Under the pieces are notes generated by a model. It ran no database searches and was not told where the DNA came from. It worked only from the letters and a program-made list of their open reading frames with translations. Of a stretch of 64,000 nucleotides of DNA, positions 18,372 through 63,800 are shown in pieces. The translations under genes were made by a program, and so were the position numbers. The stretch is from Salvia splendens (taxonomy: Eukaryota > Streptophyta > Magnoliopsida > Lamiales > Lamiaceae), in contig NC_056044.1 in the NCBI RefSeq assembly GCF_004379255.2, positions 7,666,001 to 7,730,000 on the forward strand, written 5' to 3'. The first letter of the stretch is position 1. Every line of letters starts with the position of its first letter.

Positions 18372-18461
18372 TTAGAACACATTTCAACATTCAAATCCCT
18401 TTTACCCCCATCACACTAAAAATGGAATTAAAATGTTTTTACGAACTTGTAAAGCTTTTTA

Positions 18462-41120: not shown

Positions 41121-44100
41121 TCAAACAATATTGGTATATTTTTCAGAATCTTGTGGTTTGCAGTCAAGCATGTAACTACATGCTCTCACAGCCTCCTCCA
41201 CAGTTAAGAAGACCCATTCCATTCCTAATGATTCCAGAAATTTCGATTTTTCAAGCTTCTTCATCACTTCTGCAACTGGATTCACCAACACCAACTGTTC
41301 CACAAATTCCCCATCATATTTAAGTAACCTATTTTAATTTAAATAATCCTACTCTAAATTAATTTATTTATAAAAATTGATTACCTTTAGCCCTCTTCGA
41401 TCAATAATCTTCTTAATCTCATCCATCATGCTAATCCCACTTGTATCAATGTTTCCCACAGCTGAAAATCATTTAGAACATTTTTCAATTAAGCATAGAA
41501 TTCTTAAAACTCAATTTTATTACAAATTTTAGTATACTTACCACTCATGTCGAGCACAACGTGTTGCAATCCTGTATCACCGCAGGATTTGATCCTCTCC
41601 TCTTCCTCGTCGATCCATCTTGAAATCCTAAACAAAAGATGGCAAGAAAAAAATCAATTAGAAAAATTAAGAAGCATGTTCATTTCATACAATTAATTAA
41701 TCTCAATTTCATGTACTAGCATAGTATTATTTAATAAGTAGATACCTCTCTCTCAAATAGTTGGAATTGGCAAAGTAAATGGGAGCATCGATTTCAAGAA
41801 TGAGAATTCCGGGCACTGTCTGTGCTTGCTGATAATGATGGATGTTTCTATACTCCTTTGAATCAGGAAGATTCCCAAGAACTAATGTTCTTGGTCTTGC
41901 CACAAAAAGCAAAACCCTCAATACCGAAAGTCCAATCTGTCAATTAATATAAAATTTAATCTTAGTATTGATTATTAATCTAAAATTATTGAAATGAAGT
42001 GTGGAGGTAGGGTAGGGTAGGGTGGTTACGGCGAGAACGAGTCCGATCTGAATGCTGCCGAAGACGACGCCTACATAGGCTGCCATGCAGACAAGGAAGT
42101 CGAATTTGTCGACGTGCCACAAATGCATGGCCGCCTCGTAGTCAATGAGCCCTAGCATCGCCGCCATAATGATGGCGGCCAGCACCACTAGCGGCGTGTA
42201 GTAGAACAACGGTGTCAGGAAAAGTAGCGTCGCCATCACTGCCACTGCCATCACTATGTTCGACACTGCCGTCTTGCATCCCGCGTTGAAGTTCACAGCC
42301 GATCGAGAAAACGGCCCTATTTTTCAAACCATTAATAGGGATTTTTCAGTTTAGTGCCTATTTTTATGAGACGAACTGAGTATTTTTTTTTTTTTTTTTT
42401 ACCTGTGGTAAGGTAGCAAGAGGTGCAAGAACCAACAATATTCATCATTCCAAAAGCAATCATTTCTTTGTTGCCATCAATGTGGTAATTCTTGAACATG
42501 GCAAAGCTTCTCCCCACTGCCATCCCCTCCTGTCAACCAAAATATAAATCCATTATTTAAATCATCTCAGGCTAAAAAGTGGTAATTAAATTAATATATG
42601 TAATTAGACATTGCATTGGATTACTAAGGCTGAATAATTGAAGACTTGACAATGGATAGATAATTGATTAGACTGCCCCAAAAGATAAAACCTCAATTTG
42701 AGGGCACCATTAACTGTCAATGTTGCTCCCCAATAATTATTCATCATCGTCACAAGCATATTATATTTTAAATAAATTATATTGATATATAAGATCAATA
42801 GAAACCATTAGTTTAGAGTGCTACAAATAGTCAAGTTGCTATCTTGACGCACTATAGGCCATATATTGGGACCATTTAAAGGCACACTAATGAGTAATGA
42901 CAAGTGGTCCAAATAAATAATGAGCAAATAAAAACAAACCATGTTTTCTATGTTTGAAGACTGATAAAAAATATTTACTACTTTGTAGTATTATGTGTAT
43001 AGATATGATAGCCAATACGACAGTAAAAAAATAAAAAAGAAATATACTTACAGCCATTGAAATGATGCCAGTGATGATGCCAGTCTTGATTGCTATGGGC
43101 AGATATCTTGAATCAAAGTTGAGATCCATAAATGAAGCTGGATTTATTCCCTTTTTCAAATGTCCTATCTGCATGTAAAAACAACCAACATTATTAATTT
43201 ATCCAAACCTATCTTCCTATTTAATTCAATTAATTTAGAAAATATTAGAGGACTCACCACTTGCACTCCGTGCTTTTCGGCATGGGTGAGGTACACAAGA
43301 AGGCTTCCCAATATCACTGATGTTAATGGAGCCATTGCTGATATCCAGAATAGATTTGCCCTCTTCTTGCTCTGTAAATTTCATTTATTCTTATAACTAT
43401 TTTTCCTTTCAAAACTTGTACCAACAAGTGGGATCATGCCATGCCTAATTAATTAATTTCTACACTTGACATTCTAGCTGCAAACATTTCTAGAAAATTT
43501 TTAATTATTAAAGCTAATCTTGTTCAACTTTAAATTTGTTAATACTAAGCAAACTTTTTGTGAAGGAATTATTGGTAAACTAGCTGTGTGGGCCCTCTTA
43601 GGAGAGATTACATGATTCTTCTTTTTTCTTACCAAGCATTGCTTGACTGCTGTCGATTAACCTTCTTTAGTAGTAGTAATAGAATAATATTGATTTTAAC
43701 AGAAATAAAAAGTGGCATGATAAAATTATACTGCATATAATGGAAAAAAAAGTTAAGTCTAAAAGTTGAGAGATGAACTTACAAAATATCTCGAAATTAG
43801 GAGGTAGAATAGGAAAACAAATCCCAATAAAGCACTTTCCCATCTCCACTGCAAATTACCATAGTTATATTTAATGAGAAAAAACATATTGTAAATACAA
43901 TTGATTATTGCTATGAACATAATATGTATATATAAAACTAGGGTATCCGTACCCGACAAGTCGGGTACCCGTACCCAATTTCAGCCAAATTTGTTATCCC
44001 AATACCCGCCCCGCAACATATCGAGATTACCCAATACCCGTGTCGGGTATCCCGTACCCGACCCGAAAATAAAATTATAAGAGAATAAATTTATGGGACA

Positions 44101-46504
44101 TAAAATATTTGTTACTAATTAACTAAAATAGAAAATTTGAAAAAACCTTATAGCCGACAATGTTTCCTAACTAATTCAGTGTATTAATTTTGATGGTAAG
44201 CTTTGAATAGATTAAGAATAAAAGTGAGGGGAAACTCTATAGCTAGTTTCGGTGAGTTTTTAACTGAATATTCGTTGGAATATAAAAATGTTTCAAAAAA
44301 TCTCTTAGAACACTTAGATTCTATAAAGTATTAAAAGATTGTATATAACTAATACTAATAATGTCGGGTATTATCGGGACTAACGAGTTTATCCGTGCGG
44401 GTAGCGGGTATACCCGCTACCCGCAAAACTCTAAAACATACTACCCGATCCCGCCCCATTTCCCGCTATCGTCGGGTAGCGGATACCTAATACCCCTGGG
44501 TATCGGATCGGAATAGAAATTACCCGTTACCCGCTACCCATTTTGCCACCCCTATATAAAACGAAACGATTTACAAATACCATGAATGACAAGACCCAAC
44601 CAAATCATTAATAATATACGTTTTAGTTTTATGATAGATAAATAAATAAGTGATATTGATTTTTCTAGAAATCAAAAGTCATTTTCAACACAAATTGATA
44701 AATATGGGGCAGTGATCAGAGATTCATTAAAGATGAGATAATTAAAGAGATGTATCTAAGTTGATTTTTCAAAAATAGCTAATTAAGCATATCAATGTAA
44801 TTCTTTCATATCGGACAAGAATATATGATATCAAAGACAAAGATTAGCTCGAATATCTATCTTAATCAATTATTAATCTCCATTAAGGAATTATGTATGT
44901 GCGTGTACACACAGAATATATTCACTCGACCCATTAATAAGAAAAAAAATGGCCAATTAGCGCTATAAGTTTTAATAGTCTTTGATGCTCGTGTAATAAG
45001 AATATGTTAAGTTAATGTCTTTTTAGCATTTAATTAAGAATCTAAACTCTGTCATGCGCATGCAATTACTTCGCATGTATATGATCGGCAATATAAAAAT
45101 TAAGAAACACCTAATTGTTTAATTAATTAGTAATGAATCCCCTTTGCCAAAATTGAAATTTATCTACCAACCCAATAAACAAAGCCAAAAAGAAAAGGAA
45201 AAGACTCTTTTCACTATAGAAATGAGCACACATATAGTAGCAACAAATAGATTTTTGAACAACATATTCCATTCACACAAGAAATATAAACATATATACA
45301 CATGCTAACATAATTGAGGAGAGAGATAGTAAATAAAAATACCTGGTGAGTTTGAGTGAAAATAGAGTGTAAGACATCGATGACGTCAGTTTTATGAGTA
45401 AAATGTTCTAGCCCTAAAACGCCTTTCAATTGTTGCAGAATCACAACCGTCGCCGCTCCGGCCATAAACCCTACTATCGTTGCATGCGACAGAAAATCCA
45501 CTATGAATCCCAGCCTGTCACAAATTAAATATTCTTTTTATCACATACATAAATAATTACTAAAATAAGTAGTGCTTGCATTTAAATCACATGGCTCATA
45601 ACATTTTCTAGCTCTGTCCCACTTTAAGTAGAACATTTCTTATTCGACACATGATTTTATGCGGTGTTGTTTTGTGAGTAAAGTGAACATAATAAAGTAA
45701 AAGAGATGGAACACGTAGAGTTAGTGATGTTTCTATTTTTAAAAATATATCATTTACAATGACATTTCAAAAAAAAAATTGTGTCACTTAGAATGAGACA
45801 AGACTGAATAAATTGCTATGCAAGTATTATAATAATAGTATATGAAAAAATAGTGACCTGAAAATTCCCATTGCCGTTTCAAAGAGGCCGGCGAAGAAAG
45901 TCGCGGTGAAGGCAAGATGGACGTAAAGCTGCGGATCTTGTTGCGCGTCCACGACGTCGCCAAGCATGGAAGCCGTGAGCAGCGATGCCACGGCCACCGT
46001 GCCAACGGCCAAGTCCCGCGAGCTCCCCATTACTCCGTAAATTAACGGTGGAACAAAGCTTGAATCTACACATATCATTATATATATTTATGTCACGCAT
46101 TTAACATTAAGAAATAAAAACAAAGTAATAAATGGATGTATATTAAAAATAAATAAAAAAAACTTACAAAGGCCAAGAATGGGTGGCAAATTGGCTAGCT
46201 TGGCATAGCTGATTCCCTGAGGAATGGCCAAGCTGGCAATGGTGATTCCGGCGATGAGGTCGGCCTTGAAGAACTCGAGGGTGTAGTGGCGGCCCCACTC
46301 GATGATCGGGAACACGTATTGCAGGCCGAGGATGAGTCTCCGACGCGGTGGCTGGTTCTTGAACTGGCGGAGGGGGTCGTCGGGGAAGAATGTCTCCTTC
46401 AGTGTGTTCTTTAAGGACTCCGAGAACGGCTGCGGAGGCGGGATCTCCACGCGGTGGGTGCCGCCGGCGCCGGCGTACGTGTCCACGTGGTCGGCGGTTC
46501 CCAT
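41121..46504 (-). CDS. SULTR3: Group 3 sulfate transporter (SULTR3;1-like), twelve exons
   Basis: SLC26-type proton/sulfate symporter; Arabidopsis group 3 members act largely in the chloroplast envelope. Exons on the minus strand: 46504-46168, 46065-45858, 45514-45343, 43848-43783, 43371-43258, 43168-43052, 42529-42403, 42316-42030, 41936-41746, 41627-41542, 41461-41385, 41294-41121. Sum 1956 bp, 651 aa, normal for the group. The N-terminal region has VEIPPPQPF and TFFPDDPLRQFKNQ. The transport domain shows ADLIAGITIASLAIPQGISY, GSSRDLAVGTVAVASLLTAS, VDFLSHATIVGFM, GNKEMIAFGMMNIVGS and TGPFSRSAVNFNAGC. The C-terminal STAS domain has EIDAPIYFANSNYLRER and DMSAVGNIDTSGI, with the conserved threonine. 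No lesions were found. Intron 3 (about 1.5 kb) holds a hAT MITE and intron 2 a degenerate Stowaway. SULTR3;1 versus 3;2 needs a tree. Confidence 0.94.
43939..44554. mobile_element. hAT-type MITE, copy 2, in SULTR3 intron 3
   Basis: The right end inverted reads TAGGGGTGGCAAAATGGGT. A perfect 8-bp target duplication TATAAAAC lies at 43,931-43,938 and 44,555-44,562. The left end reads TAGGG directly followed by TATCCG, so about 15 bases of its terminus are missing although the duplication survives. The interior is the same ACCCG/CGGGT-rich family as 29,201. It carries the empty version of the site used by the foldback element in copy 1. Confidence 0.88.
45609..45803. mobile_element. Degenerate Stowaway-like MITE in SULTR3 intron 2
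   Basis: The left CTCTGTCCCACTTTAAGTAG and inverted right CTTGTCTCATTCTAAGTGAC are similar but worn. It lies wholly within the intron between exons 2 and 3. Confidence 0.45.
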
Positions 46505-47086
46505 TCTATGGTAAGTATTTTTTTTTGTTACTAAGTTTGTGTGTGTTTTGGGTAAGGAGAAATGTTGTGTAAGCTTATAATGTTGGTGTAGAGTGTGAGG
46601 AATGCCAGGGGAGTTTATATAGAGGTGGAGAGGGCATCAAATTTGAGTGCTTTGTGGGGTCATACACTCACACACAACAAACATTGATGATATTAAAATG
46701 TTTTGAAAAAAAAATGTTTGTCAAAGAGTGATTGCTTTTTTTCATTCAACTTAATTAACTACTCTCTTTAATTGTTTAGTTTCCTCTTTTGCAAGAAGAG
46801 GAAACTTCATGGAGTATCAATATCCACTCACTAACTATCGTAAGCATGTTTTTAGCCTCCTTTTACAAATCCCACATTTTCATTGTATAGACTATCGTCA
46901 ATATAAAAGAGACGAACATAAAGAATTATTTAATCAGTTTAATACGAAGTGTATCTACGTCTGTAGGCTATGCTAAGCTAGAGATTTCACCATATAATAT
47001 TCAGGATGATATTACAATGAGGAAGCACCTCTATTTATAGGCACAATAGAAAGCCATAATTCTTATCTCACTAGGAAAAATGTGTA

Positions 47087-48096: not shown

Positions 48097-48155
48097 CATG
48101 TGCAAACCTAGATTTAATTTTTAATTAAATCTAGTTTTGCATAGATCAAAACCCT
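48097..48155. repeat. Head-to-head pair of element ends
   Basis: GCAAACCTAGATTTAATT is followed at once by its near-complement AATTAAATCTAGTTTTGC and then ATAGATCAAAACCCT. The same terminal text closes the elements at 48,157 and 49,261. It looks like two right ends joined without an interior. Confidence 0.55.
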
Positions 48156-48156
48156 A

Positions 48157-48445
48157 AGGAGATGATCAAAATAAAATCCATTTAAATCCAGAAATGCAGC
48201 TCAAATCTTGGCCATAAGATTAGATGATCTAATGGTCAATAATTAACCAAAAACATGGAAGGTCATAATTAAGCAATTTTATGTCATATTATAATATTTG
48301 GGTTTAATGTCATGCTAAGATCATTTTAGGTCATGCTTTGTTAGCATGATCTAAAAATTAACTAACTATGACCTAAAAGTGTCATACGTATGATATTGTT
48401 CTGCGTTTCTGTAATTAAATCTAGTTTTGCATAGATCAAAATCCC
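48157..48445 (-). mobile_element. TA-flanked element M1 (inverted copy of M3)
   Basis: It starts GGAGATGATCAAAATA and ends GCATAGATCAAAATCCC, followed by (TA)n. Inside are CAGAAATGCAG, CAAATCTTGGCC and TTAGGTCATGCTTTGTTAGC blocks. It is about 289 bp and non-coding. It is the reverse complement of 49,261-49,549, with numerous differences. Confidence 0.7.
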
Positions 48446-48457
48446 ATATATATATAG

Positions 48458-49208
48458 AGTCTCATTATTCACAAATCCACTCTTAAAGACCGAACCACCG
48501 AACCATACCAAATTAGGGTTTTTTGATCTAGTTTTTTATGGATGAGAGGCACAAATTTATAATTTATTTTCACCTTCATCACGAGCCTATTTTAATTCAT
48601 CCGAAGGTAAATAAGTCATACAAACATGTTACAAAGATTTAAATTCATTCCAGTAGGTTTTTACTTCATTCCAGTAGGTTTTTACTTCATTCCAGTAGGA
48701 TTATTACTTCATTCCAGTACGTAAATGCGGTTTCGCCGTCGCGTGTCGTTCTTTCTCTCTACAATATCTATCACCACCGCCACAACGCTGATATGATGTA
48801 ATAAACACATGGAATGATGCAATAAATTATTGGAATGAAGTATGTGAAGTCCTACTGGAATGAAGTAAAAACCTTATCCAATGAAGTAATAACGTTTCTG
48901 AATGAAGTAATAAACGCACTTGAATAAATTGTATTTTTAATGTAAATAAAGTAAAAACTCAGGTCAATGAATTCAAATTAAACATATGTTGAATCATTTC
49001 AAAACCTACTGGAAGAAAGTAAAAACATGTTGTAGTTTCAAGGTATTACGTACGGAATGAAGTAATAAATCTATACAATGAAGTAAAATGGGCTTGTAAT
49101 GAAGACCGAAAAATTTACACAGCAGCACATCTCATCAAAAAAACTAGATCTAATGGCCCAGATTTGGTCTCTAGTTCGGTCTTTAAAATTGGTTCGACAT
49201 TGATCACA

Positions 49209-49212
<4 letters not shown>
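48458..49212. mobile_element. TA-flanked element M2 with inverted repeats
   Basis: The left side CTTAAAGACCGAACCACCGA is mirrored on the right by TTTAAAGACCGAACTAGAGA, and both continue towards GATCTAGTTTTTT. The right end inverted reads GGGTTGTGATCAATGTCG, followed by (TA)n. Inside are three to four 21-22-bp units of CATTCCAGTAGGTTTTTACT and inverted GGAATGAAGTAAAAAC text. Non-coding. Confidence 0.65.

Positions 49213-49260
<48 letters not shown>
49213..49260. repeat. (TA)n microsatellite between M2 and M3
   Basis: About 48 bp of pure TA. Similar TA runs separate or bound the neighbouring elements at 48,447-48,456, 49,550-49,575 and 57,132-57,159. Confidence 0.95.
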
Positions 49261-49264
<4 letters not shown>

Positions 49265-49549
49265 TTTGATCTATGCAAAACTAGATTTAAATACAGAAAC
49301 GCAGAACAATATCATAATTAGGGCACTTTTAGGTCATAATTAGGTAATTTTTAGGTCATGCTAACAAAGCATGACCTAAAACGATCTTAGCATGACATTA
49401 AACCTAAATATTATAATATGACCTAAAATTGTTTAATTATGACCTTCCGTGTTTTTGGTTAATTATTGACCATTAGATCATCTAATCCTAGGGCCAAGAT
49501 TTGGTCTGCATTTCTGGATTTAAACACATACTTATTTTGATCATCTCCC
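49261..49549 (+). mobile_element. TA-flanked element M3
   Basis: It starts GGGTTTTGATCTATGC and ends TTGATCATCTCCC between two TA runs. It carries inverted CATGCTAACAAAGCATGACC and the CCAAGATTTGGTCTGCATTT block shared with M1. About 289 bp, non-coding. Confidence 0.7.
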
Positions 49550-49858
49550 TATATATATATATATATATATATATAGTAGTGATCTATGGCAAACACCTCT
49601 TAACCAAATAACTAGAGAACAAATAATAGCTACAAGATCAAAAAAATCAAGGGCTGGTATTAATTTTTGAATTTAAGGAGATATTGGTTCCTTTAATCAC
49701 AAATTTACTCTATAATAAAATGCAGGGGTATTATGGTCATTGCATACCAATTGAATTAACTCCAAAATTAGGGTAGTTCGAAAAATTGAATTCAATTGCA
49801 AACGAGCGTCTTCAACCTAGCATTCTCTCTTCTCCTCTTCTCTATTATAGAAATTCAC

Positions 49859-50020
49859 CTGTTTCAGCTCCAGGTGAAGGTCAGAGGAGATCTCCAGCCA
49901 CTCGCCGGAGGAGGTGGAGGGGAGCATGCTGTTGGACGAAGGAATCGGACGATCCGTATCTGGATTTCCGGCAGTTGATTCTGCAGATGTTACTAACTCC
50001 GCTGCTCTGCACCGCCGCAT
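49859..50020 (-). pseudogene. Exon-like fragment of an unidentified gene, inside M4
   Basis: From an ATG at 50,020 the minus strand is open for 54 codons (starts MRRCRAAELVTSAESTAG, ends WLEISSDLHLELKQ) and stops exactly at CAG|GTGAAT, a good splice donor. The sequence is more GC-rich than its surroundings and not repetitive. I do not recognise the protein. It may be a captured first exon or a chance frame. Confidence 0.35.
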
Positions 50021-50362
50021 TTACGGTTCGAGATTGGATTGGAAGGAGATGCTTGAGGGTTAGTGGTGAAAATTGGTGAAATTGATTGAAATTGAGCAAA
50101 TTTGAGGTTGTTGGGTTTAGTGTTATCATTTGGTTTTTGGTTTTGAGAGGGAACGCAGACAGTGTTTTTGTTATTAGTTTAACGGTTGAAGATAGTATCA
50201 TCTTTCTTTATCTATTCATTTCTTTTTGTACTCACTCCTTCTTTTTACCACTGCTATTGTCTCACATTCAAGTAATAAAATCCACGTCAGATTCTAGAAT
50301 TCGTTTATGAACAAAATCCACATGAAATCCGAAATTCAAATTCTTAGATTTATTTTGTTATT

Positions 50363-51180
50363 AGTGATGTATTTTGTAAACAAGAGTGAAGTAAAATCAT
50401 GCTAAGAGTGATGTGTTTTGTAAATAAAAGTAAAGTAAAATCATAATAAGAGTGATGTGTTTTGTAAACAAGAGTGAAGTAAAATCATGCTAATAGTGAT
50501 GTGTTTTGTGAACAAGAGTGAAGTAAAATCAGAATAAGAGTGATGTATTTTGTGAACAAGAGTGAAGTAAAATCACAGTAAAAGTGATGTGTTTTGTGAA
50601 CAAGAGTGAAGTAAAATCATAATAAGAGTGATGTGTTTTGTGAACAAGAGTGAAGTAAAATTAGAATAAGAGTGATGTGTTTTGTGAACAAGAGTGAAGT
50701 GAAATCACAGTAAGAGTGATGTGTTTTGTTAACAACAATGAAATAAAATTATGCTAAGAGTGATGTGTTTTGTAAACAAAAGTGAAGTAAAATCAGAATA
50801 AGAGTGATGTGTTTTGTAAACAAGAGTGAAGAAAAATCAGAATAAGAGTGATGTGTTTTGTAAACAAGAGTGAAGTAAAACCAAAATAAGAGTGATGTGT
50901 TTTATTAACAATAGTGAAGTAAAATCAGAATAAGAGTGAAGAAAAATCAGAATAAGAGTGATGTGTTTTGTAAAAAGAGTGAAGTAAAACCAAAATAAGA
51001 GTGATGTGTTTTATTAACAATAGTGAAGTAAAATCATTATAATAGTGATGTGTTTTATTAATAACAGTAAAGTAAAATCATTCTAATAGTGATGTATTTC
51101 GTTAACAACAGTGAAGTACAATCATTATAATAGTGATGTGTTTTGTTAACAACAGTGAAGTAAAATCATGCTAATAGTGA
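50363..51180. repeat. 44-bp minisatellite, about 18-19 units
   Basis: Units begin AGTGATGTGTTTTGTAAACA at 50,363, 50,407 and 50,451 and continue regularly. Each unit is itself two 22-bp halves, AGTGATGTGTTTTG... and AGTGAAGTAAAATC.... Some units are shortened near 50,930-51,000. Inside element M4. Confidence 0.9.
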
Positions 51181-51442
51181 TCGTTTTAATTAGCTTTTAA
51201 TTTATCAATCTACTTTGTCTCATCTCCATCGTTTTTATCCTCCGAATCGAGACATTTTTTCTCCGAACTCAAGTTCTACAAGTCCATCGCAATTTCTTGC
51301 TCAATTCCATCGTTGAATTGCAATTTCTTGCTCAACTCCTTCGTCATCGCATTTTACACCAAAATTAGATTCCACAACGTTTTTTTCCGAATTCAAATTC
51401 CAAAAAAAGTTTATATTCTCTCAAAGTAAAAATTTCAGAAAT

Positions 51443-51843
51443 AACAATCGGTTGAAGATTGGAATGAAATTGTAAAGGAAATTTTATTCACTGGAATGAG
51501 AAAAAACGAGAGCGAGAAGATGAGCTACAGTATGTTAAACTAACTACTGAAAAAAGCTATTTAACAGAAACTAAAACTAACGGCTAGTTTCAATCCTACG
51601 GCTAGGATTAAAACTTGACTAACAAACAGATCTAACGGCTGCCGGAAACGAGTTGTCATAACAGCCGATCTGCCGAGCTGCCGAGCTTGACGAGCTTGAC
51701 GAGCTTGCCGATCTTGACGAGCTTGCCGAACTTGCCGAGCTTGACGAGCTTGCCGAACTTGCCGAGCTTGGCGAGCTTGCCGAACTTGCCGAGCTTGGCG
51801 AGCTTGCCGAACTTGGTGCTTGAGCCATCACAATCTACCAACA
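51443..51843 (-). repeat. 3' LTR of the Copia element (outer end truncated)
   Basis: 401 bp from AACAATCGGTTG to CTACCAACA on the plus strand. It contains a tandem array of about 9-bp GCCGAGCTT/GACGAGCTT units (51,671-51,815). The first ~34 bp seen in the other LTR are absent. Confidence 0.88.
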
Positions 51844-51855
51844 AACTCCACCTTG
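51844..51855 (-). promoter_or_regulatory. Polypurine tract of the Copia element
   Basis: On the minus strand AAGGTGGAGTT lies directly before the 3' LTR start TGTTGG, the expected position of the plus-strand primer for reverse transcription. Confidence 0.7.
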
Positions 51856-51860
51856 ATTGC

Positions 51861-54800
51861 TCAATCACCAACCAAACTCTTCCTTTCCAGTCCCACTAGT
51901 TTCAAACATAGCAGAAACTTTTCCTTAGGCAATGGTTTAGTTAACATGTCTGCCGGGTTCTCTGAAGTATGAACTTTGAAGACTTTCACATTGCCTCTTT
52001 CAATCTCATCCCTGATGAAGTGATACCGCACATCAATGTGCTTTGATCTCTCGTGATAAGCTTGATGCTTGGCCAGAAATAGGGCACTATTATTGTCACA
52101 GCCAACTGCTATCGCCCCTTGCTCAATCCCAAGATCAGACAACATTCCTTTCAACCAGAAACTTTCTTTGATTGCAGCAGCAAGTGAGATAAATTCTGCT
52201 TCCGTTGTGGAAAGTGCCACCACACTTTGGAGACTTGATTTCCAGCTAATAGCAGACCCAAACATTGTGAATATGTATGCCGACTGAGACTTTCTGTTGT
52301 CTAAGTTACCAGCAAAGTCCGAGTCACAATATCCCACAATAGCATCAGCTCCACCTCCATCATTCACTCCATATAGAATGCCTACATCCCCAGCACCCCT
52401 TAGATATCTCATCAACCATTTGAGAGCAATCCAATGTTCTCTTCCATGATTTGCCATAAACCGGCTGACAACACTTGTGGCTTGTGCTATATCTGCTCTG
52501 GTGCTGATCATAGCATACATAATGCTCCCTACTATATTAGCATAGGGTATCTTCATCATTTCTCTGGACTCAGCCTCACTGTTGGGCCTCTGATCAGCCT
52601 TGAGCTTGAAATGCATTGCTAGTGGAGTAGCCACTGCCTTCATATTCTCCACCTTGAACCTTCTCAGCAACTTTGATATATAATCAGATTGTGTGAGCCA
52701 TAATTGCCTTTTAGCTCTATCTCTGATAATGTTCATGCCTAAGATTCTCCTTGCTGGCCCGAGGTCTTTCATTTCAAACGCAGCATTGAGTTCATCCTTC
52801 ACTTCTTGCACTGCCTTCCTGCTAGCTCCAGCAACAAGCATGTCATCTACATAAAGTAGAAGATATGTAGGATGTATGCCCCTTTTTCTGACATATACAC
52901 AGGAGTCATAACTTGATCTCTGAAAACCAATCTTGATCATATAATCATCAAAGGTCTTATTCCACTGTCTACTAGCCTGCTTCAAACCATATATACTTCT
53001 TTTCAGCAAGCATACTTTATTTTCATTCCCTGGTTTGATGAAGCCCTCAGGCTGGGCCATGTAGATTGTTTCCTCTAGTCCTCCATGTAAGAAGGCCGTT
53101 TTCACATCAAGCTGCTCCAATTCCAGATCCAACTTAGCAACCAAAACCAGCAACATTCGAATGGAAGAATGCTTTACAACCGGTGAGAAGACCTCATTGA
53201 AATCAACTCCATGCTCTTGAGTGAATCCTCTAGCCACTAACCGGGCTTTAAATCTGATCTGATCACCCTCAGCACCTTCCAGCTTCTTTTTGAATATCCA
53301 TTTACAGCTGATAACCTTCCTTCCATCAGGTTTCTCAACCAATATCCAAGTGCCATTTTTCAGTAGAGAATCAATTTCATCCACCATTGCTTTCATCCAC
53401 TTTTCCCATTCTTTGCTCTCCATTGCTTCCTTATATGAGGATGGCTCTATATACTCAACATCTTCAACCACACATAATGCATAAAATAGCATCTCAGAAT
53501 CATCAAATCTTGATGGCAGCTTGATCTTTCTTCTGACTCGATCCCTAGCCAGCTGGTAGTTTTCCAGATTATCTGGAGGCTGTGTTTGTGTCTCATTCTG
53601 AGCACTCTGAGGCTCAGTGACTTCTTCACTCTCCCCACGTTTCTCATGCCTCCCATGCTCCACCTCAAAGTCAGCTTTATCAACAGAATCAGTCACAGAA
53701 TCAGGCTTCTCAACTATCACTTTGTTCTTATCCAGAAAAGGCATTTCAGTTTCAGAGAATACAACATCTCTACTAATCACAATCTTGTGATTCCCTGGCT
53801 CTACACACCACAAACGGTATCCCTTCACCCCAGGTTGATATCCCAACATCACACACCTAATAGCCCGAGCATCCAACTTCCCTTGTTTGAGATGAGCATA
53901 TGCCTTGCAGCCAAACACTCTCAATGTGGTGTAATCTCCATGGCTGCCATACCATCTAAAATCAGGTGTGTCTCCCTCTATACTTGATGAGGGACATTTG
54001 TTGATAAGTTTCACAGCCGTGGATGCAGCCTCGGCCCAAAACTTCTTCTCAAGTCCAGATGAGAGGAGCATACACCTCACCCTCTCTAATATGGTTCTAT
54101 TTGCCCTTTCTGCTATGCCATTCTGCTGAGGATTCAGAGGTACAGTCCGGTGCCTTTTAATTCCCCTCTCCTTACAAAAGTTATCAAACTCTTTGGAGAG
54201 ATACTCCAAGCCGTTATCAGTCCTCAAACATTTAAGAACCACTGACTTCTCCTTCTCCACTTCCAGGCACCATTGCTTGAACTTACTAAAAGCCTCTGAT
54301 TTCTCTCTCAAAATGTATATCCACATTTTTCTAGAGTAGTCATCTATGATACTCATATAATACTTCCCTCCACCTACTGACACCACAGATGCAGGACCCC
54401 ACAAGTCACTATGGGCATAATCAAGAGTGGATGTGGAAGTGTGCTTGCCTTTGGGATAGGGCTGTTTCTTGGACTTACCCAAAATGCATTCCTCACATGG
54501 AGTAGTGTCCATCTGCCCAGAACTTTGTATAATCCCCTTCTTGGCCAGCTCTTTAATGCTTCCCTCAGCTGCATGAGCAAGCCGCATATGCCAGATTTTG
54601 AAGTCATCAGCCTTCACAATATTTGCCTGTGCAGTAGGGATTTCAACACTAGCCAGTAGATAGTACAAGCTTCCCCTCCTTTCAGCTTCCATCACCACTC
54701 TTTGATCCTTGGAAACTGTCATTTTTCCCCCAGTAGAGCAGAATGTATATCCCTTGCGTTCAAGAAGCCCAAGTGAAATGAGATTCCTCTTGATATCAGG

Positions 54801-55868
54801 TATATATCTCACTTCACTTATAATCTTCACAGATCCATCTTGCATTCTCAGCCTGATCTTGCCTATACCTTGGATGGTACAAACCTGGTTGTTGCCAAAT
54901 ATAACCGATCCAGTCATCTCTTGGATCTCCTCAAACCAGCCAAGATTCGGACTCATATGCAGACTACACCCCGAGTCCATGATCCAAGATCCTCCCAGAC
55001 CACCCTCCATCACATTCAGAATTTCTGGCACATCAGTTTCCTCAACACAGTCAGTGGATGGAACACGGTTTCCACCACCATTTGCTTGCCTTCTTTTCCA
55101 TGCGAAGCAATCCTTTTTGAGGTGACCCGGCTTCTTGCACCAATGACATGAGCGGGTTTCCTTTTGATTATTTGATGGAGTTTTCTGATTTTCTTGGCTC
55201 GGCTTCTGAATTCTCTTGACTCCCTTGAACTTCTTGACATTTAGGCTCTCAGCCATAGCCTCTGGATTCTTAGAGCCTGACTTCTGAATTTCTTTTGCTC
55301 TTATGGCCGACTGAACTTCAACAAGGGTGATAGTACCCTCTCGGCCATACAATATGGCATCTCGTAGCTGATCAAATGACTTCGGCAGAGCATTCAAAAG
55401 TAATATTGCCTTATCTTCATCCCCTATCGAGGCGTCGATATTTTCAAGATCATCGACCGCCTTATTGAAGTCTTCAAGTTGCTCCAATATCCCTTTATCT
55501 TCCAAGAATCGATAGGAGTATAACCGCTGCTTCATGAGCAGCCTATTGGCCAAGGACTTAGCCATGTACAAGTCTTCGAGCTTCGCGATTATTCCGGCTG
55601 CAGTCTTTTCTTTTGCAACCTCTCGAAGAACTTTATCCCCGAGGCATAGCACAATTGCACTATGAGCTTTCGCCTCGATCTCAGCTCGTTTAAGGATCTC
55701 CTTTTCGTCAAGATCCATCTTCTCCCCTTTCTCCGACTTGTCCTCCTTTTCGCCCGCCTCCAACGCCGAAGCAAGGCCTTGATGAATCAGCATAGCCCGC
55801 ATTTTCATCCGCCATAAGCCGAAATCATTCCTACCCGTGAATTTCTCGGCCTCAAACCTAGAAGCCAT
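51861..55868 (-). CDS. Copia gag-pol polyprotein (TNT1-94-like)
   Basis: A single uninterrupted frame of 1335 aa from the ATG at 55,868 (MASRFEAEKF). Order of domains: gag; CCHC zinc knuckle (CHWCKKPGHLKKDC, around residue 240); aspartic protease with WIMDSGCSLHM (around 300); integrase with the histidine/cysteine finger and catalytic acidic residues near HSDLWGP, RTDNGLEY and NPQQNGIAERANR; reverse transcriptase with DVKTAFLHG and YVDDML; and RNase H with ALSTTEAEF and KHIDVRYHF. Protease-integrase-RT order identifies Copia. The length and layout match TNT1-type elements. No stop or frameshift is seen, so it may be able to move. A slightly longer frame upstream begins at a non-ATG codon and is not preferred. 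Confidence 0.95.
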   Translation of the reverse strand: MASRFEAEKFTGRNDFGLWRMKMRAMLIHQGLASALEAGEKEDKSEKGEKMDLDEKEILKRAEIEAKAHSAIVLCLGDKVLREVAKEKTAAGIIAKLEDLYMAKSLANRLLMKQRLYSYRFLEDKGILEQLEDFNKAVDDLENIDASIGDEDKAILLLNALPKSFDQLRDAILYGREGTITLVEVQSAIRAKEIQKSGSKNPEAMAESLNVKKFKGVKRIQKPSQENQKTPSNNQKETRSCHWCKKPGHLKKDCFAWKRRQANGGGNRVPSTDCVEETDVPEILNVMEGGLGGSWIMDSGCSLHMSPNLGWFEEIQEMTGSVIFGNNQVCTIQGIGKIRLRMQDGSVKIISEVRYIPDIKRNLISLGLLERKGYTFCSTGGKMTVSKDQRVVMEAERRGSLYYLLASVEIPTAQANIVKADDFKIWHMRLAHAAEGSIKELAKKGIIQSSGQMDTTPCEECILGKSKKQPYPKGKHTSTSTLDYAHSDLWGPASVVSVGGGKYYMSIIDDYSRKMWIYILREKSEAFSKFKQWCLEVEKEKSVVLKCLRTDNGLEYLSKEFDNFCKERGIKRHRTVPLNPQQNGIAERANRTILERVRCMLLSSGLEKKFWAEAASTAVKLINKCPSSSIEGDTPDFRWYGSHGDYTTLRVFGCKAYAHLKQGKLDARAIRCVMLGYQPGVKGYRLWCVEPGNHKIVISRDVVFSETEMPFLDKNKVIVEKPDSVTDSVDKADFEVEHGRHEKRGESEEVTEPQSAQNETQTQPPDNLENYQLARDRVRRKIKLPSRFDDSEMLFYALCVVEDVEYIEPSSYKEAMESKEWEKWMKAMVDEIDSLLKNGTWILVEKPDGRKVISCKWIFKKKLEGAEGDQIRFKARLVARGFTQEHGVDFNEVFSPVVKHSSIRMLLVLVAKLDLELEQLDVKTAFLHGGLEETIYMAQPEGFIKPGNENKVCLLKRSIYGLKQASRQWNKTFDDYMIKIGFQRSSYDSCVYVRKRGIHPTYLLLYVDDMLVAGASRKAVQEVKDELNAAFEMKDLGPARRILGMNIIRDRAKRQLWLTQSDYISKLLRRFKVENMKAVATPLAMHFKLKADQRPNSEAESREMMKIPYANIVGSIMYAMISTRADIAQATSVVSRFMANHGREHWIALKWLMRYLRGAGDVGILYGVNDGGGADAIVGYCDSDFAGNLDNRKSQSAYIFTMFGSAISWKSSLQSVVALSTTEAEFISLAAAIKESFWLKGMLSDLGIEQGAIAVGCDNNSALFLAKHQAYHERSKHIDVRYHFIRDEIERGNVKVFKVHTSENPADMLTKPLPKEKFLLCLKLVGLERKSLVGD

Positions 55869-55927
55869 AACACCCTCCAATCTCACCACCGAAAGAACAA
55901 ATCAGAAATCAATCGCGCCTCCCGATT

Positions 55928-55946
55928 CCCACAGACGGCGCCAATT
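55928..55946 (-). promoter_or_regulatory. Primer-binding site of the Copia element
   Basis: Minus strand AATTGGCGCCGTCTGTGGG directly follows the 5' LTR end TTTACA. TGGCGCC is complementary to the tRNA-Asp 3' end, while the TNT1-like relatives generally use initiator tRNA-Met, so the primer here may differ. Confidence 0.55.
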
Positions 55947-56389
55947 TGTAAACAATTGAGGAACGATTTGAGTAGCAAGAACAATCGGTTGAAGATTGGA
56001 ATGAAATTGTAAAGGAAATTTTATTCACTGGAATGAGAAAAAACGAGAGCGAGAAGATGAGCTACAGTATGTTAAACTAACTACTGAAAAAAGCTATTTA
56101 ACAGAAACTAAAACTAACGGCTAGTTTCAATCCTACGGCTAGGATTAAAACTTGACTAACAAACAGATCTAACGGCTGCCGGAAACGAGTTGTCATAACA
56201 GCCGATCTGCCGAGCTGCCGAGCTTGACGAGCTTGACGAGCTTGCCGATCTTGACGAGCTTGCCGAACTTGCCGAGCTTGACGAGCTTGCTGAACTTGCC
56301 GAGCTTGGCGAGCTTGGCGAGCTTGCCGAACTTGCCGAGCTTGGCGAGCTTGCCGAACTTGGTGCTTGAGCCATCACAATCTACCAACA
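55947..56389 (-). repeat. 5' LTR of the Copia element
   Basis: 443 bp with TGTAAACA at the plus-strand left and ACCAACA at the right, i.e. TG...CA on either strand. It has the same GCCGAGCTT-type array as the 3' LTR but one unit more. It ends inside the TIM23 fragment. Confidence 0.88.
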
Positions 56390-56746
56390 AGCAGCTCCTA
56401 CCACCACGCCTCCAAGCGCTCCCGCCAGCGCCGCCGCCCTCGGCCCCGAGGCCGCCTTGTACAGCGCTCCAGTGGCCAATCCCGCCACGACGCTGTTGAT
56501 CACGTCGTCCGTATCCCTCCACGTGACCATGCCGCTCTCGAGCCCAGCGTACATCAGCTCGATCACGCCGCAGCAGTTCCCGATCTGGCGCCCCCTGTGC
56601 CCCAAGCCGTTGAGGATCCGGTTGATTTTGAGCTTCGTGGTATCGGTTGGCTCGATCGCCTTGACCACGGTGGCGAGGCCCTGGGCGGCGCCGGCGAGGT
56701 AGCCGATTCCGGTGTAGTAGGTGATGTTCTCCCCCCAGGAGCGGCG
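56390..56746 (-). pseudogene. Fragment of a mitochondrial import translocase TIM23 gene
   Basis: TIM23 forms the presequence channel of the inner mitochondrial membrane. The minus strand reads, without a break, [20 protein letters not shown], then [43 protein letters not shown] and [13 protein letters not shown], matching the Tim17/22/23 core of plant TIM23. About 119 residues remain of about 190. The N-terminal part and the last ~20 residues are missing. The C-terminal side is cut by the Copia LTR; the N-terminal side stops at the junction with the ERF fragment. Intronless and GC-rich. A captured fragment, unlikely to function. Confidence 0.85.
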
Positions 56747-56773
56747 CTACGCGATTGATTCGTTGGCTTGCAC

Positions 56774-56899
56774 AAGAGGAAATCGGGGAAGTACTCAGCC
56801 GAAGTGAGGGATCGTCGGCTCAAGAAACGTATCTGGCTGGGCACTTTCAACATCGCCGAAGAGGCCTCCGCGGCTTATCTCGCGGCGAAGCTCCTCTAG
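56774..56899 (+). pseudogene. Fragment of an AP2/ERF transcription-factor gene
   Basis: The plus strand reads KRKSGKYSAEVRDR, then KKRIWLGTFNIAEEASAAY and a stop at 56,897-56,899. This is the middle of an AP2/ERF DNA-binding domain (the WLGTF and AEEA motifs), with the KSGKY form seen in the CRF-like/ERF118 group. About 41 codons survive. The usual AYDAA-like end is altered to AYLAAK. It lies only 27 bp from the TIM23 fragment, in the opposite orientation, so two different genes contributed. Confidence 0.75.
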
Positions 56900-57128
56900 G
56901 CGATCGGATTTGCCCATGAATTTGGTAAGATTGGATCACGATGATGATTATATGTTATGCAGCAATTCATGTTGAGATATTGAATTCCCAAAATGCCCTT
57001 GGACAAGTGTTTTTTCATAAAAATCTGAAAGTTTGTTTAAGCCATAGGATTAATTTGGAGTAACAAAATGTATGGCTGAGATTTGTTCTCTAGTTATACA
57101 CTTAAAATTAGTTATACTTTGATCACTC

Positions 57129-57159
<31 letters not shown>

Positions 57160-60100
57160 ATGAGCTACAAGAATATATTTATGTCATCGTATTCTTTATG
57201 TGTTTTTATATCCATACTTATCACATTTATACCATAAAAATAAGTTTACAAACTAATCAAAGCATATTAATTAGGTCAACAAAACCCCCCAACAAAACTT
57301 CTCGTTCTTTATATGGTATATCCCTACACATGCAATACCAAAATTTCCCACTCTTTATGAGTGTGAGTTGGTCAAACAGTAGAGAGGTCAATGTCTGAAG
57401 CCAAAAGTTTCAGATTCAAGTCCTCCGTGACGCGACCTTTAAATTTAAATTAATTTCCGTAAAACACAATTCACTCTTTGATTCTCATGATATGAATTTA
57501 ATTCATACTAACCAAGTTTCAATAGGCTATAAATCTACTAATCATGAATTCTCAGTCGAATATGCATAAATTCAATGTGAAAATGTTTGAATTCATAAAT
57601 TGAGACTTTTGTCTCTGTGAATTCGAACACTAGACTCCGAATTTATTCAACATTATAATTCCTATACTTTTTTTATAATAAATTGACCTATTTATTCAAT
57701 CCATGTACACGGCAATTTCAAATTTGAACAAATTATGATCAATCAGTATTATACAAAATTCTCCACTAATTCCTCATAATAAATTTTTGTATTTTTGTTA
57801 TTACTGTTATCTTTTCTTGAGAAAACACAACTTTATATACTACTAAAAGGTAGTGGTAACTGGTATGATATTGAATCTTCTAGGTTGGACAATGGCTGCC
57901 TACCAACGTGGTCGATTCTTATTGGATGTAAATTACAACAACCAATGAGCTTGCAACACTTGTCACATGAACCTACAGCCAAAACGATATTTGATTAATA
58001 AGGTTAGGTACAGGGTGGCATGGCTTCTGATAAAATGGCATGCTGGTCGAATTAAAAAAAACCGGAAATGATTAATGATTAATGAATCATTAATTCAATT
58101 TAAAGTTATAGTTTTTGGTGGTAATGAAATCATGCCAATTTAGGGGGTTGGTAGGCTTCGAATCAGATATTTTATACAAATGCGATAGAAAACCAGATTT
58201 AATTAAATTTGATTTGACGATGCCAATCAAATATTTACAAATGTGGCGATTTTGTCACACACAATATGGTCAGTCAAACTCATAATTCAATAACGAAACT
58301 AATTGAACAGATTATTATGGGTTCAGTTTGTTACAAGAGTTTGATTCGATTTTTAATTTGTGCCTAGATTTTGACATGTGTTTGGCTCAGAGAAAACCCC
58401 TAATTTCATTGCATCTATAAGTGCATTAATTCTAGTAATTAATGTTTTGACTTATATACTCTATTTCATTTGATAGTAACTTGACAACGACGAACGCATT
58501 AACACTACTACATAGGGAGTTTTTATCCCCTGAAACCGATTTTTAATTTATTTTTAAATATGTTGGAAATCTTTCTTTAGAAGTCACGCTCAGATAAGAG
58601 TATGTTTGTTATTAATTTATCCTAAATAGAATGATAATATAAGGTATAAATTTATCTTTTATATTAAATCTCAAAATTTTACTCTTATCCAAGGAAAATG
58701 TGTTGTCCGAAATTTTATAGGACCTAGCAATTTATTTTATAGAATTATTTCATTATTGATTTGGGTGGCACGTAGTTAGGTTGCTGGTGTGTAGTGATTA
58801 TTTATATACATATAAATAGACAATAGTTATGAAGGATGTTTAAGTACAAAATTATCTATAATAGGTAATTTCGAAAAATGAAAAAAATGTGTATGGTCGT
58901 GCAAATTGTGGATTGGATGCAGCTAGGTAAAGTGAGAAGCACTTAATGTGGATCCCCTGCTTCCAAGTCTCTATTTATGGGAAAACACACTTTCACTTCT
59001 TTTTATTGGATTAATAATTATTACGAAATTTGTTTTTTAAAAAATCTGTAAAATTAGACTTTGGACTGGATCGACATCATTTTCTTAGCAAGGTGTATAC
59101 ACTTACTACTAAAGTAAATACGTACACTTATAATTCCAAAATATTTAACTAATTAAAGTACCAAAAAATATTATGTTCAAATTCAACCTAAGAATTTATA
59201 TTTATCTAATGTTACATACAACTTTATTAACAAATTTGTCTTACATATGCATGTTAGAAATCTTAATTATTGCACGACCTCAAACTTTTTAATGATCCAA
59301 AATTTGAGTTGTGAGTGATTATAGTAATTGCAAATCAAACTTAGATGTAGTATGAGTATTTGATGAGATAGAGAATAGATGTACATGTTTGTACTATAAA
59401 AAAAACATATCATTTTCCAATAAATTAAAGATGTTAGGCTAGCATTATTAGCAATAATTGGTAGTAAACCAATAGTATCCATTACTTATAAATTAAAAGG
59501 ATGTTATCGTGAACGTGTAGCCTCAAATGAAATACGTAACATATTGGTGGTGTGGAATGGTGCTAGTTACATGAATAGGGCTCGTTTGATTTTGTGAAAT
59601 GCATTAATATGATGTGGGATTTTTGTTGAAGATTGAGAATTTACCTTTTTTTTTCAATCAACCATTGTGGCATTGTTCTTTTCTATCACAAATTAACCAT
59701 TTACATACAAAAAAAAGAGAAAAACGTACTATGTATTTGCATTAAGTTTGTTACATAGTTTAGGGGATTGCATAGGAATGGATCTTATTTACCCATTTTA
59801 TTAGAAGAAAAATGTGAAGAAAAAAAAATCAAAATAGCAATAGGCTCTAAAATTGAGTGGGTTGACTCAATAGTCAATTCATTGAATTTTTCTTCATTAT
59901 TTATTTTTAAAATAATAAAAAGTTTAGTTGATTTGCTTTGGTTTTTCCACGCGGAAGTTGTGCATTTCTCGTATATCTCTTTATTACAATGCCTAATAAA
60001 AAATCTTTTGATATGAATAATATGTAAATGTGGGCTCAATCTTTATCGCAAACATTTTGGCACTTCAAGACGGTATCAAAGCTGTTGATTGAGTAAATAC

Positions 60101-60736: not shown

Positions 60737-60801
60737 AGGCTCAGAAATAAACTCATCACAGCCTAGATATACCGTTTCTCGACCTAAGGCAGAATTAAGC
60801 C

Positions 60802-63800
60802 ATGGCCGACGACGAAGACAGAACCAAACCCAAACTCTCAGACGATAACAAATTGAGAGTTAGCAAGAATATTACCGTTGCCGTGAAGCTCAATGGAACC
60901 AACTATTTGATATGGGCGCGGCTAATGAAAATCCAGATCGGGAGTAGGAGGGTACTCCGATACATCAACGGCAATCCGCCACCACTCGAACCAGGGGCGG
61001 CTGATTACACGGAGTGGGAGGAGACAGACTTAATCGTCTTCTCGTGGATTCTAGACAACATCGAAACCGATATTGTCATTGATTTTGCCCATCATCAAAC
61101 GACAGAGGCTATGTGGAAAAGCCTAGTCGTGACATTCGAAAGCACATCCGATTCATTCCAGCTTTTCGATCTAGAAGAAAAAGTAGAAAATGTCAAGCAA
61201 GGAGAACAAAGCCTGGAGACGTATTGGCGGCACTTACATGGGACGTGGATCGATGCCAAGAACAGCCGGTCACATGTTGTGACAAAGGGGTCAGCCAATT
61301 CCGGAAATACATCGAAACCTGGCGGTTATTCAAGTTCCTAACCGGGCTCAACCCGAGATACGATCAGATGAAGCGGGAAGTGCTCAAGGAACGACCATGG
61401 CCCTCAGCCGAGGTCGCATACGGCTGGATTAAGATGGAGACCGCCCAACTTAAAATCATGCCGACAATCTCCACCGAACCAACCGGTGCAACCAACGACG
61501 TCGCATCATCGGGCCATATCGGACTTGGATTCGCGGCTCGGAGTCAGCAGCGGGGTGGACCATCACCGCATCGAACCGGTGCACCCAACCCCCAAAATCC
61601 CCGACCCTTTATACCGGACAAATTGAAGCTATGGTGCTCGCACTGCGGGAAACACAAACACACCAAGGAGACGTGCTTCCTCCTTGTCATCTTCCCGGAA
61701 TGGTGGGACGAGAACCAGAAAGCCAAGGCGAAGCTGGCGATTGGAATATCCGAAAATGGGGGAGGGTTATTTCCGATGACTGGAGCGGGCAACTAGGAGG
61801 CCGCCGACGCTCACGGTCGGCAAGAGAACAAGGGTGGTGCAGTCGGAGAGGCGGCGATCGCCGATTTCAGAGGAGTCGGCGGGTCGTTTGGCGGCGGATC
61901 TTGTGGAGGTAAAGGGTTAGGGGTTAAAAACCCTAACCCTACTTGGTTAATTGCTATTAAGCCCCCCGAGACTGATAAATCATGTTTTTACCCCCAATTC
62001 TGGACTATTACATAAGAAACCCCATGCTGAACCTAATGTGCAATTGAGTCCCATTAGAGTTAAAAACACGAAAACTTACCCCCCAGCTTTAGAAAAATCA
62101 TTTTTTGACCCCAATTATTTTGCACCTCTTGAAAATACCCATATTGCATGCGTAGCAGAAAAATTACAGGGTAATACTGGGAGTGAGTGGATATTTGATT
62201 GTGGAGCTACATATACTATGACCTATGATAAGAGTGATTTTACCACTTTTAATAATGCAACGAAAAGCCAAATTCAAACCGCTGATGGGGAGTTGACATC
62301 TGTGAATGGGAATGGAACTATTGAAATATCACAAGTCTGAAACTTAAAAATTGCCTATATGTGCCAAAACTGTCTCACAAACTGATGTCTATTAGTCACG
62401 TGACGAAGGAACTAAATTGCACTTTATTGATGCATCCAAATTTCTGTGTTTTACAGGATATCCGGACGAGGAGGATAATTGGGAGTGGCACTGAGCATCA
62501 GGGGCTCTATTATGTGGATGAGATAGCTCACCAAGGGGGGGCGCGATGCTTGCTCACGGATCTGCTGATAGAGAAGCTTGGTTGTGGCACCGTCGAATGG
62601 GTCATCCTTCCGCGGGTTATTTCAAATTACTTTTTCCAAAGTTTTCCCATCTTAAAGACATTTCTTGTGAGTCATGTGTTTTGGCTACGAATCATAGACA
62701 ATCTTTTAAATCTAGTAATACGCGTGTTAAATATATTTTTTCCATTGTTCATGCTGATGTGTGGGGCCCTGCGCCTATTACTGGTGATCATGATTTTAAA
62801 TACTTTCTTCTGTTTGTCGATGATTGCACTAGAATGACGTGGGTATATTTTTTGAGACATAAATCTGAAGTTTTCGAAAATTTTACCATCTTTTTCAAAA
62901 TGATTTAGACACAGTTTCACCAAACTATCTCGGTTCTTAGGTCAGATAATGGTAGGAAATTTGTTAATCGAGACATGGAAGAATTTTTTACGAAAAATGG
63001 GTTAATTCACCAAACCACTTGCCCGTATACACCGGAACAGAATGGGGTAGCAGAAAGAAAAAATAGAATTCTTCTTGAAATAACTCGAGCTTTGTTTTTT
63101 GATTCAAATGTTCCGAAATTTCTTTGGCCTGAAGCAGTAGCTACCTCGGTGTACTTGGTCAACCGTCTTCCAACAAAAATTCTTGATATGAAAACACCTC
63201 TTCAAGTTCTCTCGAAATTGACAAGAGTCCCTGAACCATATACTCTTCCACTAAAGATTTTTGGGTGCTCTGTCTATGTGCATGTACCGAAACATGAACG
63301 CACAAAGTTTTCTGCATGCGCCGTGAAATGTGTCTTCTTGGGATATAGGATTAATCAAAAGGGGTATAGATGTTATGATCCGTCTTCTAGGAAAATAATC
63401 ACTACTATGAATTGTAACTTCCTGGAGTGCGAATACTTCTATCAAACCCAACTTAGCGGTCAGGGGGAGAGTAGGAATACCCTAAGGGATATGAGTGGAC
63501 CTCCAAGTTGGTTGGTGCCTCAATCAAGCAACTCCGAAGTGGAACTAACAGAACAAGCTAGCGCCACCGCCGAGCAGGTCACGTCCACTGTGGATCCCCT
63601 CAGCGAGCCACGCCTCAGACCAATCCTCCTCCAGTGATATCCGAGGTAAATTCTGAACCCATTCCTGAGAGTACAGTTATTACTAATAACCTTCCTGAGA
63701 AAGATGAGGTCACAACTATTGATGGGGTCCCCCACGAAGCACTCGAGGGGTCCCACCTAAAAGATACAGTCCAGAAAAGATCGAAAGTAAAAGTAGATAC

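Follow-up and report, generated by a model that had tools for sequence, protein, structure and literature searches.

Within a 64,000-nt stretch of the Salvia splendens genome (contig NC_056044.1, forward-strand positions 7,666,001 to 7,730,000; hereafter the window, numbered from its first letter), we analyzed an array of elements at 48101–57159, made up of a remnant, M0, and four elements, M1–M4, that lie end to end with TA between neighbors. The elements carry terminal inverted repeats (TIRs), share end points, are flanked by TA runs and are not nested in one another, while M4 contains pieces of TIM23 and AP2/ERF genes and a nested Copia retrotransposon. We consider it likely that the array is a modular, non-nested group of non-autonomous TIR transposons of the kind of Mutator-like elements (MULEs) that targets TA microsatellites, similar to SaTar and MuTAnT, with M4 as a Pack-type member. 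Because targeting of TA microsatellites and end-to-end arrays have already been published, M1–M3 appear to be additional members of an established type; microsatellite targeting and gene capture together are possibly new.

Array layout and element ends

TA runs of at least five units occur at seven places in the window, and four of the seven separate or bound array elements (Table 1). An earlier note on this DNA, made from the letters alone, had described four TA-bounded elements side by side. The TA runs are present at all four places, but the first element does not begin at 48097: 48101–48154 is the end of another element, M0, and M1 spans 48157–48445, the junction between the two being a single TA unit. 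No member of the array interrupts another, and the only interruption is the Copia within M4, giving the modular, non-interrupting layout of SaTar-type arrays.

Table 1 Features of the array and of M4 (positions in the window)
Feature	Position	Strand	Comment
M0	48101–48154	.	Remnant of an M1/M3-type end, short foldback; left end lost
M1	48157–48445	-	Non-autonomous TIR element of 289 bp; opposite orientation to M3
TA run between M1 and M2	48446–48456	.	11 bases
M2	48457–49212	.	756-bp foldback TIR element
(TA)24 between M2 and M3	49213–49260	.	
M3	49261–49549	+	289-bp foldback TIR element of the M1 family
(TA)13 between M3 and M4	49550–49575	.	
M4	49576–57131	.	Large candidate TIR element with host-gene fragments
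GC-rich island (0.55)	49880–50065	+	OVATE-like peptide, not significant
44-bp tandem array in M4	50363–51188	.	Two stretches, 13.1 and 5.8 copies
Nested Ty1-copia retrotransposon	51443–56390	-	Uninterrupted gag-pol frame; Pfam RVT_2, 2.5e-70
Gene model SASPL_135213	~56381–56917	-	Exon limits interpreted from frames
TIM23 fragment, putatively captured	56391–56761	-	ESIA, stop, RRSWGEN to GVVVGAA; truncated by Copia
Partial AP2/ERF domain, putatively captured	56759–56896	+	Opposite to TIM23; profile and PDB matches
(TA)14 right of M4	57132–57159	.	Adjacent flank shows no element end

M1 and M3 are inverted copies of each other with 91.7% identity over 303 aligned positions, TA included. Using 900-bp slices that took in ~300 bp around each element, we saw the alignment break off within the TA run at one border and, at the opposite border, right after the element end and one TA unit. 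The slices otherwise matched at the M0/M3 end (35 bp), in the inverted arms of M2 (which lie partly in both slices) and in one 36-column match among element ends. The M0 match pairs 48122–48156 with the left end of M3 (49293–49259) at 97% over the 35 bp, and M0 also contains a self-palindrome (48101–48141, 88%). A TIR-bounded element flanked by microsatellite is thus repeated here, as M1/M3 and part of M0. The earlier note had named copies without common end points, or similarity extending past the TA runs, as signs of segmental duplication, and M1/M3, the one repeated pair of the window, displays neither.

Both M2 and M3 fold as whole-element hairpins (z = −9.7 with 20 shuffles and −9.0 with 200 shuffles, respectively), with a weaker value of −4.7 for M1 (200 shuffles). 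M2 has 21-bp subterminal repeats in both orientations, and the outermost 20 bp of its two ends do not match each other. No RNA family reached the gathering threshold.

We compared the terminal 70 bp of the eight element ends (left, L, and right, R, with TA removed) to 2,400 random 70-mers from the rest of the window. Scores for an element's own two ends were 36 for M1 (null maxima 32 and 34), 32 for M2 (27 and 26), 37 for M3 (33.5 and 29) and 43.5 for M4 (31 and 29.5); all four pairs outscored every random 70-mer, and among comparisons across elements M4R–M2R reached 61. Best local alignments within the terminal 70 bp covered 28 columns in M3, 42 in M2, 47 in M1 and 59 in M4. With the subterminal arms of M2 adding a further 106 columns at 71%, these TIRs have the length typical of MULEs (tens to hundreds of bp), though the repeats are imperfect. 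The end points of M1/M3 and the own-end scores support the proposal of one TIR-element family with common end points at TA runs.

The motif GGG-N(1–4)-TGATC adjoins the TA run at 5/7 element-facing sides (M1R, M2R, M3L, M3R and M4R) compared to 0/7 other TA-run sides in the window (six at three unrelated runs and one at the outer right flank). Over 128,000 strand positions, there are 14 matches, overlapping ones included; seven fall at array ends (M0, M1R, M2R, M3L, M3R and, twice, M4R) and the other seven elsewhere, including one within the nested Copia. Because the motif is so rare in the window and absent from the other TA sides, its presence next to TA at five sides is not due to chance. 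The ends with GGG and TGATC that the earlier note attributed to all four elements were therefore recovered at five sides and failed at M2L and M4L. A subterminal box of M2 was found three times at up to three mismatches (in M2, M3 and M4) compared to 0.04 expected in shuffles, and a diverged fourth copy lies within M1 at ~48197–48215. This box had likewise been proposed as common to the ends; it is shared between elements but clear at only one end of each.

Stowaway, a Tc1/mariner-type miniature inverted-repeat transposable element (MITE), has CTCCC-type termini beside a TA duplication. At five of the seven TA-facing sides, the elements start GGG..TGATC and end GATCA..CCC, and the other two sides start with GAGTCTC and GTAGTGATC. 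Stowaway was accordingly rejected on end sequence.

M4, its gene pieces and its retrotransposon

At 7.6 kb, M4 is by far the largest member; without the nested retrotransposon it measures ~2.6 kb and consists of arms, a 44-bp tandem array and islands rich in guanine and cytosine (GC). Its arms have a GC content of 32–34%, and values for M1–M3 and the M4 arms together (0.29–0.34) stand against 0.55–0.67 for the gene islands. The gene fragments lie between TIR-type ends, though M4L and M4R may not be one pair. The 44-bp array and M2 (48930–48956; family D15) have a 27-nt stretch in common, at 78%, and the two are possibly related subterminal repeats.

Pieces of at least two host genes had been claimed for M4, and profile and PDB matches bear this out for TIM23 and AP2/ERF. 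The TIM23 piece (Pfam Tim17, 3.1e-25; PDB TIM23, 3.2e-12; GC 67%) is 88% identical to a TIM23-1-like protein of S. divinorum over 86% of the query. It lacks four residues found in intact relatives, carries an in-frame stop directly upstream of RRSWGEN and is cut by Copia. The AP2/ERF piece (GC 56%) matches ERF096 in the PDB (8.6e-9) and Pfam AP2 at 1.4e-6, with 29.0 bits falling under the cut-off of 33.3. The OVATE-like peptide has a nonsignificant match to Pfam Ovate (E = 0.051, 14.1 bits versus a cut-off of 25, 17 residues) and no match in the PDB. No homologue sharing three words was found for the OVATE-like or ERF piece in a search limited to proteins of similar length, in which a full-length parent could not appear.

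The TIM23-like frame at 56387–56746 (minus strand) corresponds to the predicted S. splendens protein SASPL_135213 (143 amino acids (aa)), with 100% identity over the full 120-aa query, and this gene model evidently lies in M4. The protein reads MGKSDRLEELRREISRGGLFGD, then RRSWGEN...GVVVGAACW. Based on frame translations, its exon 1 is largely antisense to the ERF piece and joined to the TIM23 exon, and its final residues, CW, are encoded by the Copia long terminal repeat (LTR). A second protein, SASPL_141321 (136 aa), comes from another locus and is 96% identical over 97% of the TIM23 query. From column 67 of the alignment onward, to which the comparison applies, the two share the four-residue deletion and residues L, E and T that are absent from four other aligned plant TIM23 sequences. 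Private to SASPL_135213 are two substitutions, besides the two Copia-encoded residues; private to SASPL_141321 are three substitutions and one extra residue near its different start, and its C-terminus, GAAVAS, lacks the Copia-encoded tail. Judging from these residues, SASPL_141321 looks like another, likewise truncated copy of this TIM23 piece, and both look like copies of one degraded fragment. SASPL_141321, represented here by its protein, was also considered as a conceivable donor gene. They may be transposed copies or homoeologs; S. splendens is tetraploid, with 11 homoeologous pairs (PMC8408255).

The Copia retrotransposon (~4.95 kb) accounts for about 5 of the 7.6 kb of M4 and had gone unmentioned in the earlier note. 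Over ~400 bp, one substitution and a single 9-bp repeat unit distinguish its LTRs (51443–51844 and 55980–56390), the BLAST figure of 97.1% including the 9-bp gap plus a few bases past the LTR. The insertion is young, given that the LTRs are nearly identical. No matching target duplication was seen at its two junctions. At 51430–51445 and 55940–55990, LTR similarity stops ~33 bp before a possible inner LTR end, and a deletion may have removed the outer end of the LTR along with the target duplication.

Elsewhere in the window, two transposase fragments of the Plant_tran/DDE_Tnp_4 type, which we take to be Harbinger-type, lie at 16725–19323 on the minus strand (Pfam, 2.6e-53 and 8.8e-59), and a weak third match falls in the gap separating these two; they appear to be a pair of broken copies, one after the other. 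We also considered an autonomous MULE somewhere in the window and rejected it, as none of 39 open reading frames (ORFs) of at least 120 aa matched one and the transposase fragments at 16.7–19.3 kb are Plant_tran/DDE_Tnp_4. A second, broken Copia-type retrotransposon extends over several frames at 60799–63634 on the plus strand (gag, Pol_BBD, gag_pre-integrs, SH3 and rve). Two minus-strand frames at 41943–46636 match sulfate permease family members, one at the beginning and one at the end, and are probably exons of one gene. At 34366–38696 (plus strand), a KIP1-like domain precedes a stop-free frame of 1302 aa whose Pfam matches are all weak and below the cut-off. Viral contigs scanned with DNA patterns yielded 0 matches, the outcome to be expected when the DNA comes from a plant.

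Mechanism and alternative readings

The arrangement is most likely due to transposase-driven insertion into TA runs. In the mechanism we propose, a transposase from elsewhere in the genome would recognize the GGG-N-TGATC ends and the subterminal AGACCAAATCT-type box and, being of MULE type and acting in trans, would place the element within a (TA)n run. Each insertion would keep TA on both sides, and later copies would enter the adjoining TA and so stack end to end. M4 would have acquired the TIM23 fragment (now stop-bearing), the oppositely oriented AP2/ERF piece and perhaps an OVATE fragment, probably through copying of short GC-rich exon pieces between its TIRs, as in Pack-MULEs. Copia would then have landed in M4 very recently. 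The SaTar authors proposed an alternative, homologous recombination of circular intermediates into microsatellites (PMC5907723), and the present data fit either route.

Several observations weigh against assigning the array to one MULE family with M4 as a single member. None of the 39 stop-to-stop ORFs of at least 120 aa in the window has a MULE transposase match in Pfam, and target-site duplications (TSDs), which in MULEs span 8–11 bp, are not measurable where insertions lie in TA runs. M2L starts with GAGTCTCATTATTC (GAGTCTC), with neither GGG nor TGATC, and M4L starts with GTAGTGATC, which keeps TGATC and is missing GGG. Scores of M2L against M1L, M3R, M4L and M4R fall inside the random null, as do those of M4L against M1L and M3R. 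Repetition is shown for M1/M3 alone (plus part of M0), within this window. In the literature, the carrot paper finds it unclear if autonomous Mutators mobilize such elements (PMC8227079), and the MuTAnT authors think that TA targeting arose in several unrelated families (PMC4486113).

The reading of M4 as one unit has its basis in the similarity of its two ends. They could instead belong to two different array elements, with the gene fragments being chromosomal sequence or insertions bracketed by chance, and we regard this as unlikely. M4L pairs equally well with M2R (44.0) and M4R (43.5), and at 7.6 kb, or 2.6 kb without Copia, M4 far exceeds the 0.29 kb of M1/M3; fused elements with lost ends are also seen in SaTar clusters (PMC5907723) and in M0/M1 here. 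Opposing this, both M4 ends adjoin TA runs, and short pieces of at least two different genes side by side have been described for Pack-type elements (PMC8903248, PMC13317346). M4L and M4R also share an identical 17-nt stretch, ATAACTAGAGAACAAAT, that differs by one base from M2R, M3R and M1L; as M1R and M3L have that base too, this argues only weakly for unity. Capture of the gene pieces by M4 and its movement as a single unit are inferred.

It is also conceivable, but quite improbable, that the array consists of TIR elements from another superfamily, such as one related to Stowaway/Tc1-mariner and making a TA duplication, or a lineage for which no transposase is known. The absence of a transposase and of a measurable TSD here would suit such an origin, as would an insertion site that contains TA. 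Read inward, however, the ends start with GGG, the opposite orientation to the Stowaway CTCCC terminus. The independent origins of TA targeting envisaged by the MuTAnT authors would favor another superfamily (PMC4486113), but the long imperfect or foldback TIRs, the ends with G runs and the non-nested stacking resemble SaTar and MuTAnT (PMC5907723, PMC4486113), and SaTars, Micron, MuTAnT, Ac-mMITEs and MiMs have all been ascribed to MULEs. We give very little weight to segmental duplication or microsatellite-mediated recombination, rather than transposition, as the source of the M1/M3 repeat and the TA flanks. Recombination may belong to the normal process if circular intermediates recombine as suggested for SaTars (PMC5907723). 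Segmental duplication of M1/M3 was nonetheless rejected, because similarity extends on neither side past the element end or TA run; different elements, moreover, share end sequences at equal distance from the TA run.

A broader reading is tentative, and we would not call it probable: TA-targeting MULEs of S. splendens may constitute a Pack-type lineage whose members gather host exons and place them exclusively in TA runs, with M4/SASPL_135213 and SASPL_141321 as copies of one such element, and array neighbors might move together with the intervening sequence. Shuffled exons would in that case be moved without breaking genes. By targeting microsatellites, a transposon has been proposed to spare genes from damage (PMC4486113), and gene capture has been proposed as a way for transposons to assemble new genes (PMC8903248, PMC13317346); an element combining the two would be a low-damage exon shuffler. 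M4 already yields an annotated, predicted chimeric gene model, SASPL_135213. If M4 is a single immobile relic, the case is ordinary.

Comparison with known systems

The earlier note took the rice element Micron as its precedent; that Micron is the main precedent is not supported. Targeting of TA microsatellites has been published for Medicago (PMC4486113) and carrot (PMC8227079). In guayule, rice, sorghum and citrus (PMC5907723) and in pineapple (PMC8449440), it has been published along with clusters or end-to-end arrays, and Micron, likened here by its description as a TA-microsatellite MITE (PMC5907723, PMC4486113), has been reassigned to MULEs (PMC5907723). SaTars, MuTAnT, Ac-mMITEs and MiMs are attributed to MULEs as well (PMC5907723, PMC4486113, PMC8449440, PMC8227079), and membership of M0–M4 in this group would follow by analogy. 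No paper on Mutator-type microsatellite MITEs in Lamiaceae was found, on thin evidence, and the mint family may be new ground for such arrays.

Gene capture by a family of this type had been put forward as new. Capture by MULEs, in the form of Pack-MULEs, is well known (PMC8903248, PMC13317346), so what may be new is its combination with microsatellite targeting; a search of open-access literature, mostly titles and abstract starts, found no gene-carrying (Pack-type) microsatellite-targeted MULE. M4 resembles Pack-MULEs and Pack-TYPE elements in having pieces of different genes between TIRs (PMC8903248, PMC13317346), but the word 'microsatellite' occurs 0 times in the main texts of these papers. 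Pack-MULEs are defined by TIR homology to MULEs, whereas M4 is likened to them by structure only.

Ac-mMITEs of pineapple (PMC8449440) and MiMs of carrot (PMC8227079) are TA-microsatellite MITEs assigned to Mutator, and the former are often clustered through adjacent insertion (PMC8449440). They are likened here by description, not sequence, and differ in that their main texts contain neither 'captur' nor 'gene fragment' (PMC8449440, PMC8227079). MuTAnT of Medicago truncatula is similar in its foldback TIR elements within TA microsatellites, its whole-element hairpins and its ends starting with 0–4 G, the variable G runs recurring here (PMC4486113). Its TIR mask, GGGGTTTGCTAGAACA, is unlike the ends of M1–M4; it has a mudrA/Jittery-like autonomous partner, and its main text is without 'captur' or 'cluster' (PMC4486113).

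SaTars (gSaTar in guayule and rSaTar in rice) differ from the array in that M4 bears gene fragments, the SaTar main text being without 'captur' or 'gene fragment' and terming rSaTar1, 3 and 5 non-Pack-MULEs (PMC5907723). Members of 11/15 guayule families also occur outside microsatellites with 9–10 bp TSDs (PMC5907723), whereas the array here is likened to SaTars by structure, not by a MULE TIR or 10-bp TSD. Nonetheless, SaTars share with the array imperfect TIRs, flanking TA runs and modular, non-nested mixed arrays, and their non-autonomous members, at 0.38–1.9 kb, are comparable to those found here (PMC5907723). The likeness extends to neighbors fused after loss of the linking microsatellite (PMC5907723), as at M0/M1, where the TA is reduced to one unit.

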